Under the pieces are notes generated by a model. That model did not search any database, had not been told where the DNA came from, and saw only the letters and a program-made list of their open reading frames with translations. The position numbers were made by a program, and so were the translations under genes. This document shows, in pieces, positions 8,591 to 12,427 of a stretch of DNA of 64,000 bases (position 1 is the stretch's first letter; each line of letters opens with the position of its first letter). Origin of the DNA: Actinomyces sp. ZJ308 (GTDB taxonomy: Bacteria > Actinomycetota > Actinomycetes > Actinomycetales > Actinomycetaceae); the NCBI RefSeq assembly GCF_011752065.1, contig NZ_JAAIJY010000012.1, positions 1 to 64,000 on the forward strand, read 5' to 3'.

Positions 8591-8842
8591 CTACCGCGTG
8601 CGCCTGCCGTAGCGGCGCTCGAACTTCTCCACTCGGCCGGCCGTGTCCAGGATGCGGCCCTGGCCGGTCCAGAACGGGTGGGAGGCGCTGGAGACCTCGA
8701 CGTCGTAGACCGGGTAGGTGTTGCCGTCCTCCCACTCGATGGTCTCCGACGACGTCAGGGTCGAGCGGGTCAGGAAGGCGAAGTCGGCGGACTTGTCCCG
8801 AAAGACGATGGGTTGGTAGCTGGGGTGGATCCCAGGGCGCAT
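8591..8842 (-). CDS. rpmE2: 50S ribosomal protein L31 type B (bL31B)
   Basis: This 83-aa protein begins [16 protein letters not shown] and contains [24 protein letters not shown], the standard bL31 core. It has the type B insert and lacks the CxxC zinc motif of type A. It sits 48 nt after rpsN in the same direction, within the set of Cys-poor ribosomal proteins, which supports a zinc-sparing role. Confidence 0.92.
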
Positions 8843-8890: not shown

Positions 8891-9196
8891 CTACCAGGAG
8901 GACTTGACGATGCCCGGCAGCTCGCCGCGCAGCGCCATCTGACGGAAGCGCACCCGCGAGGTCCCGGTGACGCGCAGGTGCCCGCGCGGGCGCCCGTCGA
9001 CCGCGTCGCGCCGCCGCAGGCGGGTGGGGGAGGCGTCCCGGGGCAGCGCGTGCAGCGCCGCCATCGCCTCATCGCGCTCGGCCCGGCTCAGGTGGGGGTT
9101 GACCGAGGCGCGCTTGAGCTCGGCCCGGCGCTCGGCGTAGCGCGCCACCACCTCCTGGCGCCTCAGCTCGGCGGCGATCTTGGACTTCTTGGCCAT
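8891..9196 (-). CDS. rpsN: 30S ribosomal protein S14 (uS14), Cys-free long form
   Basis: This 101-aa long-form uS14 begins [17 protein letters not shown] and ends [19 protein letters not shown]. The long type lacks the zinc ribbon; no Cys is present. The ATG shares one base with the rpmG stop (TGATG), so the two are coupled. In actinobacteria this form accompanies the Zur-controlled rpmB2/rpmG2 set, as here. Confidence 0.93.
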
Positions 9197-9372
9197 CAGC
9201 GCGACTCCTTGTACTCCACGTGCCGGCGCACCACCGGATCGAACTTGCGCAGCACCAGCCGGTCGGGGGTGTTGCGGCGGTTCTTGCGGGTGACGTAGGT
9301 GTGGCCCGTCCCCGCGGTGGAGACCATCTTGATGATCGGCCGCAGGTCCTTGCCGCCCTTGGCGCCGCTCAT
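9196..9372 (-). CDS. rpmG: 50S ribosomal protein L33 (bL33), Cys-free form
   Basis: This 58-aa protein ([20 protein letters not shown]..., with [19 protein letters not shown]) is a bL33. The four zinc-binding Cys of the other form are missing. The start overlaps the rpmB stop by 4 bases and the stop overlaps the rpsN start by 1 base, so the three are translated as a chain. It is short enough to be missed by simple gene finders. Confidence 0.92.
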
Positions 9373-9608
9373 GACAGCTTCTCCCCTCGGGCGAGCATCT
9401 GGGCCGCGACGACGTCGATGCCCAGCTTGTCGATCGTGCGGATGCCCTTGGCGGACACCGTCAGGCGCACGGTGCGTCCCAGCGACGGCACCCAGTAGCG
9501 CTTGCGCTGCAGGTTGGGGTTCCAGCGCCGGGGGGTGCGCTTGTGCGAGTGGGAGACGGATCGGCCGAAGACCGGCCGGGCTCCCGTGACTTGGCAGTAG
9601 GTGGTCAT
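9369..9608 (-). CDS. rpmB: 50S ribosomal protein L28 (bL28), zinc-free type
   Basis: This 79-aa bL28 begins [20 protein letters not shown], followed by [20 protein letters not shown]. It has a single Cys instead of the CxxC pairs of zinc-binding forms. It is the first gene of the cluster. The -10 box TATCAT (9616-9621) lies 7 nt before the ATG with no Shine-Dalgarno, and the AGAAT-G-ATTCT palindrome overlaps the region just upstream. A much longer in-frame extension upstream would run through that promoter and into the divergent gene, so I reject it. Confidence 0.9.
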
Positions 9609-9615
9609 GACGAGC

Positions 9616-9638
9616 ATGATATAAGAATGATTCTCAAT
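9616..9638. promoter_or_regulatory. Probable Zur box in a divergent promoter
   Basis: AGAAT-G-ATTCT (9624-9634) is an 11-bp perfect inverted repeat, within a wider TATAAGAATGATTCTCAAT. It resembles the known Zur core TGAnAATGATTnTCA. It lies next to the rpmB -10 box and 30 nt before the start of the CobW-like gene, so one site could repress both directions when zinc is plentiful. Confidence 0.72.
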
Positions 9639-9663: not shown

Positions 9664-10908
9664 GTGATCGATCCCTCGGATGACCTCGCCGCCGACCTCT
9701 TCGACCGCCCTGACGGCCGGGCCGAAGCCGATGGCCGGCACGTCCTGGCCGTCATCGGCGCCGTCGACCCCGCCCTGCTGGACCTGGTCGACCTCTCCCT
9801 GGCCGGCCAGGACGCCGTCGTCATCCGCGCCGGCCTCCACTTCGGCGACGATGGCGACGATGGCGATGACGGCGATGAGGGTGAGAGCGGCGACCTGGTC
9901 CGCCTCGTCAGCCACAGCTCGGCCGACGGCTTCGACGACGACCCGGTCCGCCTTGACGTCCCCATGCCCTTCACCTGCCCCACCTGCTCCCTGCGTGAGG
10001 TACTGGTCGCCGTCGCCGAGGACCGCGCCGCCCAGGACCCGGGCGGCACCACCGTCATCCTCCTGCCGGCGGCCATCGAGCTCGCCCACCTCCTGCCCAA
10101 CCTGGCCGATGACCTGGCCGGCACCGGGGTGAGACTGGCCGGGGCCGCCCACGTCCTGGACGCCACCGCCGCCTGCGACGAGCTCCTCGAGCACCGCCTG
10201 CTGACCGCCTTCCCCGGCGACTGCCGCTGCGCCGGCGCCGTCCACCTGGCCAACCTCGGCTACGCCGACCTCGTCCTGGCCCTGGGACGCGACGAGGACC
10301 CCGCCGGCGCCGACCTCATCGAGCACCTGCGTCCCCACGACGCGCTGCTGCTCCCCGGGCTCGACGCGCCCCTCCTGGAGACCCTCACCGGCCTCACGCA
10401 CGACGCCCGCGCCTCCCTGAGCCGCATCCACCCCGCCACCACCAGCGCCTGGGGCGGCCCCGACGACCACGGCGTGTGGACCCTCGACCTCAGTGCCTCC
10501 CTGCCCTTCCACCCCGGACGACTGCGCGCCCTCGTCGTCGACCTCGCCGGTCAGGGCCTGTGCGCCCGCGGCTGCTTCTGGCTGCCCAGCCGCCCCGGCC
10601 GGGTCTGCACCTGGGAGGTCGCCGGAGGCGCCGTGAGCGTGGGCGACGCCGGAACCTGGGCGGAGGTCCCGGCCGATCCGTCAGGCGACGTCGTCGGCGT
10701 CGATGGTGGGATCGACGGCGGTGCCTCGGGCGAGCCCCGCTGCCACCTCGTGGTCACCGGCGTCGGAGACGAGGACATGCGCGAGCAGGTGCGGCGCGCC
10801 TTCGCCCGGATCCTCCTGCGCCCCGAGGAGATGGCCCAGGCCCTGGCCTGGATCGGCGTCGACGACGGCCTGGGCGACTGGTTCGGCCAGGGGAGCCCGG
10901 AGCGCTGA
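9664..10908 (+). CDS. CobW/COG0523-like protein without a P-loop (putative zinc chaperone)
   Basis: This 414-aa protein starts at GTG 9664 after GGAGG. The C-terminal third fits the CobW C-terminal domain: [18 protein letters not shown], then [20 protein letters not shown] and a final [14 protein letters not shown]. The middle carries [10 protein letters not shown] (about 101-110), at the place of the CxCC metal motif of COG0523 GTPases, and a late-GTPase-like [15 protein letters not shown]. The N-terminus lacks GxxGxGKT; it reads [20 protein letters not shown]. An acidic repeat [13 protein letters not shown] (about 60-72) is inserted. The divergent Zur-box arrangement with Zn-free ribosomal proteins points to zinc homeostasis. 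GTP use is doubtful. The precise role is inferred. Confidence 0.75.
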
Positions 10909-11116: not shown

Positions 11117-12427
11117 ATGACCGCGCAAGCCGTCACCCCGTCCCTGAACCAGCCGCTGGCCGAGCTCGACCCCGACATCGCCGAGGTCCTCACCGGAGAG
11201 CTCGCCCGCCAGCGCGAGACCCTGGAGATGATCGCCTCGGAGAACTTCGTTCCCCGGGCCGTCCTGGAGTGCCAGGGCTCGGTCCTGACCAACAAGTACG
11301 CGGAAGGGTATCCCGGGCGCCGCTACTACGGCGGCTGCGAGGTCGTCGACGTCGCCGAGTCCCTGGCCATCGAGCGCGCCAAGGCCGTCTTCGACGCCGA
11401 GTGGGCCAACGTCCAGCCCCACTCCGGCGCCCAGGCCAACGCCGCCGTCCTCCACGCCCTGGCCACCCCCGGCGACACCCTCCTGGGCCTGTCCCTGGCC
11501 CACGGCGGCCACCTGACCCACGGCATGAAGATCAACTTCTCCGGCAAGAACTACAACGCCACCGCCTACGGCGTGGACGAGACCACCATGCGCATCGAGA
11601 TGGACCAGGTGCGCGAGGCCGCCCTGCGCGAGCGCCCGAAGGTCATCATCGCCGGCTGGTCCGCCTACCCCCGCCACCTCGACTTCGCGGCCTTCCGCGC
11701 CATCGCCGACGAGGTCGGCGCCGCCCTGTGGGTGGACATGGCCCACTTCGCCGGGCTCGTGGCCGCGGGCCTGCACCCCAACCCCGTTCCGCACGCCGAC
11801 GTCGTGTCCACCACCGTCCACAAGACCCTCGGCGGCCCGCGCTCGGGCATGCTCCTGTCCAGCCGCGCCGAGCAGTGGGGCAAGAAGCTCAACTCCGCCG
11901 TCTTCCCCGGCCAGCAGGGCGGCCCCCTCATGCACGTCATCGCCGCCAAGGCCGTGGCCATGAAGATCGCCGGCACCGAGGAGTTCCGCGAGCGCCAGGA
12001 GCGCACCGTGCGCGGCGCCGCCATCATCGCCGAGCGCCTCGGGGCCGACGACGTGCGCGCGGCCGGAGTCAGCCTCGTCACCGGCGGCACCGACGTCCAC
12101 CTCGTGCTGGTCGACCTGCGCGACTCCTCCCTGGACGGCCAGCAGGCCGAGGACCTCCTCCACACCGCCGGCATCACGGTCAACCGCAACGCCGTCCCCT
12201 TCGACCCGCGCCCCCCGCGCGTGACCTCCGGCCTGCGCATCGGCACCCCCGCCCTGGCCACCCGCGGCTTCGGTGACGCCGAGTTCACCGAGGTCGCCGA
12301 CATCATCGCCGCCACCCTCATCCACGGCGCCGCCGGCACCGCCGACGACGAGACCCTGGCGGCCCTGCGCTCTCGCGTGCGCGCCCTGACCGACGCCTTC
12401 CCCCTCTACCCGGGGCTGGCCCAGTGA
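11117..12427 (+). CDS. glyA: Serine hydroxymethyltransferase
   Basis: This 436-aa PLP enzyme interconverts serine plus THF with glycine plus 5,10-methylene-THF. Motifs include [35 protein letters not shown], the PLP-lysine motif [16 protein letters not shown] (about 232-247) and the closing [19 protein letters not shown] 11117 follows GAGGAG. It is first in an operon with folD (GTGA overlap) and is controlled by the ZTP riboswitch, so one-carbon supply would rise when purine synthesis stalls at ZMP. Confidence 0.97.

Follow-up and report, generated by a model that had tools for sequence, protein, structure and literature searches.

A distant Mrf-like COG0523 protein without GTPase motifs, encoded beside zinc-free ribosomal protein genes in Actinomyces

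Introduction

The locus described here raises the question of what a COG0523-like protein may do when the GTPase motifs of its family are missing. COG0523 GTPases of the YjiA, ZigA and YciC type combine a G3E fold and a CobW_C domain with a GxxGxGKT P-loop, an NKxD guanine motif and a CxCC metal motif; the Actinomyces protein resembles them in fold and CobW_C domain and has none of the three motifs. Its gene lies in the window, the whole stretch of 64,000 nucleotides analysed from Actinomyces sp. ZJ308 (assembly GCF_011752065.1, contig NZ_JAAIJY010000012.1, positions 1 to 64,000).

A mycobacterial protein provides the closest point of comparison. According to the portion of the study available, Rv0106 lacks both GTPase motifs and has a CXSC motif (Haas et al., 2009, PMC2770081). 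Rv0106 and its counterpart MSMEG_6069 were later named Mpy recruitment factor, or Mrf, in excerpts of two further sources (PMC7174638, PMC13418864). A study of Zur in M. smegmatis, as excerpted, places MSMEG_6069 (MRF) next to rpmB-rpmG-rpsN-rpsR and a Zur motif, divergent from the genes for zinc-free L28, L33 and S14 and with L31 nearby (PMC7174638). Mrf facilitates binding of Mpy to zinc-free ribosomes, and has a zinc-binding CXXC motif and a zinc-dependent turnover by Clp, in the extracts of a 2026 review (PMC13418864). Among the matches listed, no experiments on the Actinomyces lineage were found, the word Actinomyces appearing once, in one review. The comparisons below make it probable that the Actinomyces gene encodes a Mrf-like, zinc-gated and nucleotide-independent factor for zinc-free ribosomes, a pseudo-GTPase.

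A COG0523-like protein without a P-loop

A ribosome-binding site (GGAGGA) precedes the GTG start of the open reading frame (Table 1), and the 5' limit of that start is set by the divergent rpmB paralogue at a distance of 55 bp. CobW_C is the sole Pfam domain of the 414-residue product, which gives no match to the Pfam cobW GTPase domain. The Walker A motif GxxGxGK[ST] (G....GK[ST]) is absent throughout the open frame, as is the [NST]KxD guanine motif, and LGRD aligns at the NKCD of P-loop relatives. An initial annotation of this DNA had proposed that CobW_C was kept while the P-loop was gone, and in this it was correct. In an alignment including 51 P-loop-less rows, the GFLGAGKT columns of P-loop COG0523 proteins align with AVDPALLD, and a strand (residues 26-33), a loop and a helix (residues 36-46) are modelled there in blocks with pLDDT of 86-98, so that the P-loop segment is best described as replaced and not as missing. 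That a P-loop lies upstream, concealed by an error in the sequence, is ruled out, since the segment is present, confidently modelled and equally free of the motif in relatives. A pseudogene is likewise ruled out by the reading frame, which is conserved at 84% identity in Actinomyces naeslundii, the top named relative.

Table 1. Features of the Mrf-like locus, with positions in the window.
Feature	Position	Strand	Basis
rpmE paralogue (L31), Cys-free	8591..8842	-	profile match, sequence; Cys-containing L31 elsewhere in genome
rpsN paralogue (S14, 101 aa), Cys-free	8891..9196	-	profile match, sequence
rpmG paralogue (L33), Cys-free; shares 4 bases with rpmB and 1 with rpsN	9196..9372	-	sequence; Cys-containing L33 elsewhere in genome
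rpmB paralogue (L28), only one Cys	9369..9608	-	profile match, sequence
Zur-like palindrome TGAGAATCATTCTTA between divergent Mrf-like gene and rpmB	9622..9636	.	pattern match to sequence
Mrf-like P-loop-less COG0523-like protein, 414 aa	9664..10908	+	ORF, GTG start, profile match to MRF-type proteins
First strand and first helix (residues 26-46), including the degenerate P-loop site AVDPALLD (residues 33-40)	9739..9801	+	alignment to GFLGAGKT; model
Acidic repeat, residues 61-73; 9-nt tandem repeat	9844..9882	+	repeat search, model, alignment
CPTC (in place of CxCC), residues 105-108	9976..9987	+	both Cys invariant in 70-row alignment (rows pre-selected for a CxxC)
CobW_C domain, residues 274-383	10483..10812	+	Pfam, 33.2 bits (cut-off 22)

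The single CxxC of the open frame is CPTC, and the protein contains no CxCC metal motif. The earlier description of CPTC as kept is right as to its presence and wrong as to its history: P-loop relatives have C-x-C-C, and the cysteine at the third position is here a threonine, which makes CPTC a degraded form of CxCC.

The structure prediction called for at the outset returned a G3E fold. The AlphaFold2 model, built on the 70-row alignment, has a pLDDT of 89.1 and a pTM of 0.88 and gives the 414-residue protein a predicted G3E/YjiA-like fold. Its top Foldseek match is YjiA (E 1.8e-10). Structural alignment with VIA-align yields Z 11.4 and an rmsd of 8.9 over 263 residues for YjiA, the high rmsd perhaps reflecting a different domain setting, and Z 10.3 with an rmsd of 3.6 over 168 residues for HypB. 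By sequence, phmmer found no solved structure up to E 1, and a profile search of solved structures recovered YjiA only (E 0.0049). The Z scores against YjiA and HypB indicate that the fold around the site is retained, as would be expected if the AVDPALLD loop bound a nucleotide in a non-standard manner. Such cryptic binding is nevertheless very improbable given that none of the 51 P-loop-less rows has GxxGxGK[ST] or an NKxD at the aligned position (L126 being cut short there). The first glycine of the P-loop is retained in the MRF-type and Streptomyces-type rows described below. Judged by these motifs, the Actinomyces protein would be inactive as a GTPase.

The acidic repeat was described at first as a gain of this protein. 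The repeat is real, with 3.6 copies of the 9-nt unit GGCGACGAT at 9844-9875 encoding an acidic stretch, which by profile alignment falls at the VNDMSEVNID position of P-loop relatives and lies in a poorly modelled loop, the block of residues 61-70 having a mean pLDDT of 62. It is not a family trait, however: among the 70 aligned rows the acid-rich loop (16-23 residues, 6-13 of them acidic) is confined to the naeslundii/oris/johnsonii group (7 rows, the window included); the GDD repeat in its exact form occurs in the window protein alone. Three more rows have a long loop of 16-33 residues with 3-5 acidic residues, and in the other 60 the loop has 3-8 residues.

Ribosomal neighbours and a Zur-like box

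The Mrf-like gene stands back to back with paralogues of the genes for L28, L33, S14 and L31, all of them without CxxC zinc motifs. Between the divergent genes lies a Zur-like palindrome, identified as a sequence match to a pattern that was itself partly derived from this site. In the window the pattern occurs at 9622-9636 alone (0.00 expected by shuffling), and genome-wide it has six forward and five reverse matches against none and none for the reversed control. Across homologous loci a box within one mismatch lies near the start in 39 of 81, compared with about 0.2% of 2,430 shuffles. The remaining 42 have no such box near the start; in several of them the gene is preceded by a co-oriented L31 gene, which perhaps accounts for the lack of a box.

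Other Zur-like boxes of this genome lie at the start of a gene on contig 34 (near 128311, L063) that by eye resembles a ZnuA-type zinc-binding lipoprotein with a His-rich loop, and on contig 76 (41509 and 41545, L064/L065), where two boxes 36 bp apart adjoin genes that by eye resemble a dihydroxy-acid dehydratase and ABC transporter ATPases. Just downstream of the Mrf-like gene is a ZMP/ZTP riboswitch (RF01750, 10966-11051, forward strand, 51.3 bits, gathering threshold 39), which precedes a glyA-like ORF at 11117; folD-like and purU-like ORFs are nearby (names by inspection).

The Zur-like box, the CobW-type ancestry of the protein, its conserved CxxC and the acidic loop of the naeslundii/oris/johnsonii group could all be accommodated by the role first proposed for this gene, that of a GTP-independent zinc carrier or buffer in which zinc would be held by the CxxC and the acidic loop for delivery or storage. 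Several observations make this unlikely. The adjoining genes are ribosomal and do not include a client enzyme; in the 70 rows, selected for a CxxC, the cysteine pair of that motif alone is invariant; outside the naeslundii/oris/johnsonii group, 60 of 63 rows have a loop of 3-8 residues; and a buffer made only under zinc lack would presumably compete with its clients. Gene layout and likely regulation favor a role at the ribosome over one as a free carrier or buffer of zinc. The GTP-independence proposed along with that role remains a sensible reading, as the GTPase motifs have been lost across the whole clade examined.

A role as partner of a functional COG0523 GTPase within the same cell is disfavored, because a six-frame search of the genome at E <= 0.001, done twice, gave no hit to the cobW GTPase domain. 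Negative results of this six-frame type carry some doubt, since a CobW_C search of the same kind failed to recover the window's own gene. The genome does contain a gene for a long HPF and one for ClpS.

Distribution of the Mrf-like gene

The named relatives come from a scan of genome contigs and are those 80 of 195 that resemble the query most, a selection biased to the query's own clade. Start codons in these loci were assigned by a simple rule and are possibly some residues off. None of the 80 has a P-loop, 78 of them being informative: L122, whose Cys site contains masked bases, and L129 show no CxxC, and their N-terminal part is incomplete in frame. A CxxC is present in the 78, and L117 has an NKND somewhere in frame. 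The 70-row alignment dropped L122 and L129 for want of a CxxC and also omitted nine of the remaining 78. This survey, which had been suggested as a check, shows P-loop loss to be common to the whole clade examined. Homologues of the window's four ribosomal proteins lie within 2.5 kb in 77 of the 80 loci, and a CxxC was found in none of the neighbouring L28, L33 and S14 proteins (0/76 each) or L31 proteins (0/64).

Within the family Actinomycetaceae the Mrf-like gene was found in 34 of 151 genomes, including 10 of the 12 in the genus Actinomyces. A long S14, defined as one above the NF006477 cut-off, is present in all 34 genomes with the gene compared with 9 of the 117 without it, a co-occurrence for which Fisher's exact test, ignoring shared ancestry, gives 8e-26. 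Both members of the genus without the Mrf-like gene are also without a long S14. One or more members of the set of four ribosomal genes flank 29 of the 30 loci from the family search, the exception being L023, a fragment with neither Cys motif nor ribosomal neighbours. Three family genomes (G004, G063 and G120) have two S14 matches, one of them long, and no Mrf-like match; these either carry a long S14 without the factor or have a factor too distant to see.

Linkage to ribosomal genes is also compatible with an assembly or a zinc-handling role. Tight linkage and co-occurrence with zinc-free ribosomal proteins would suit a factor that, apart from hibernation, loads such proteins onto the ribosome or removes the zinc-bound ones. 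The studied relative works via Mpy, however, and ribosome remodelling is described, in the portions of the review available, as taking place at zinc levels that still permit little recruitment of Mpy (PMC13418864). An assembly or exchange factor of this type is unlikely.

Kinship with Mrf and origin of the P-loop-less form

Profile comparison supports a kinship with Mrf well. The 414-residue protein matches a profile of MRF-type proteins over 339 columns (E 3.6e-40, 21% identity over the profile alignment), somewhat better than a profile of P-loop relatives (E 1.2e-35). The NCBIfam model for MRF (NF047431) gives 56 bits over residues 160-407 against a cut-off of 375, which marks the protein as a distant relative and not as the filed MRF equivalog; the NCBIfam ZigA model matches weakly (36.9 bits). 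The MRF model has matches in 70 of 396 genomes of the phylum, in 11 of them above the cut-off. These 11 proteins, referred to here as MRF-type, stand in for MSMEG_6069 and Rv0106 in the sequence comparisons. All 11 are without a P-loop, have a CxxC and adjoin genes for L28 and L33 (10 also S14), and no CxxC was found in the ribosomal proteins encoded beside them. Motif loss, CxxC and ribosomal neighbours are thus shared with the Actinomyces protein. NF047431 bears the name 'ribosome hibernation factor-recruiting GTPase', yet its 11 members above cut-off have no P-loop, and the database label 'GTPase MRF' is misleading.

Among the other 19 loci, six (L044, L049, L052, L053, L054 and L060) encode what are here called Streptomyces-type proteins, the genus label being inferred. 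Like the Actinomyces protein they have neither P-loop nor NKxD and all six lie beside zinc-free ribosomal genes; unlike it they keep a full CACC and form a branch of their own. A CACC without a P-loop is possibly an intermediate state. The other 13 encode ordinary COG0523 proteins that carry both a P-loop and CICC; six of these lie near one or more such ribosomal genes, and one has both L28 and S14 nearby. P-loop proteins can thus be linked to ribosomal genes as well, but the L28-L33-S14 set is largely peculiar to the P-loop-less form.

Quick trees with SH-aLRT support and without bootstrap were built from 35 Actinomycetales-type, 10 MRF-type (of the 11) and 6 Streptomyces-type rows against 16, then 30, P-loop COG0523 rows; 14 of 15 extra P-loop rows tried entered the trees, several of them long-branched. 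All P-loop rows fall on one side of a single branch (SH-aLRT 99-100%, with and without the motif columns), and the P-loop-less grouping holds provided that the root falls among P-loop proteins. The P-loop is the ancestral state in G3E proteins. The split is for this reason consistent with one loss of the P-loop, the tree itself showing only that a single origin is not contradicted. The Actinomycetales-, MRF- and Streptomyces-type proteins each occupy a long branch of their own, without a settled order among the three, so that CxCC may have given way to CxxC once or twice and the function of the Actinomycetales-type may have drifted.

A possible role at zinc-free ribosomes

The Actinomyces locus resembles that of Mrf in several respects. 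Motif loss is common to both, with CXSC/CXXC in the excerpted descriptions of Rv0106 and MSMEG_6069 and CPTC here, and so is the divergent layout, across a Zur motif in the account of MSMEG_6069 and across a Zur-like box in Actinomyces. The differences are that L31 belongs to the opposite operon in the Actinomyces locus, and that the protein sits on a separate long branch, at 21% identity to the MRF-type profile and below the NCBIfam cut-off. The initial annotation held that a GTP-independent zinc carrier or buffer would be a new mode for the family; Haas et al. (2009, PMC2770081) already describe Rv0106 as lacking both GTPase motifs. Motif loss is thus in print for Rv0106, and the Actinomyces gene belongs, as a distant member, with Rv0106/Mrf.

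In the mechanism proposed for the Mrf-like protein, Zur would shut the shared divergent promoter region when zinc is replete. As zinc falls Zur would release, zinc-free ribosomal proteins would replace the zinc-binding ones, and the Mrf-like protein would be made alongside them. Its G3E-fold domain would serve as a scaffold without GTP, with the CxxC site reading zinc directly. By analogy with the mycobacterial relative, the zinc-free form would bring the long HPF (HPF/Mpy type) to zinc-free ribosomes, while the zinc-bound form would be destroyed by Clp, for which the adaptor gene ClpS is present. Recruitment of HPF/Mpy by the Actinomyces protein is thus inferred from this relative.

A broader and more tentative proposal, possible though somewhat less than evenly favored, is that zinc-gated ribosome parking by a Mrf-type pseudo-GTPase is an old actinobacterial device and not a mycobacterial one. 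The P-loop would have been lost once in an ancestor, with the Streptomyces-type CACC proteins as an intermediate and the others passing to CxxC, turning a GTP-driven zinc inserter into a direct ribosomal zinc sensor. The acidic loop at the Switch-I position would be an addition of the naeslundii/oris/johnsonii group that may tune contact with zinc or with the ribosome.

The Mrf-like, GTPase-dead branch of COG0523 is here extended to Actinomyces, Schaalia, Arcanobacterium, Cellulomonas, Nocardioides and others, which shows how widely the GTPase-dead form accompanies zinc-free ribosomal proteins. Its natural variants (CACC, CxTC, CxSC and the acidic loop) provide material for testing how zinc might be read without GTP.
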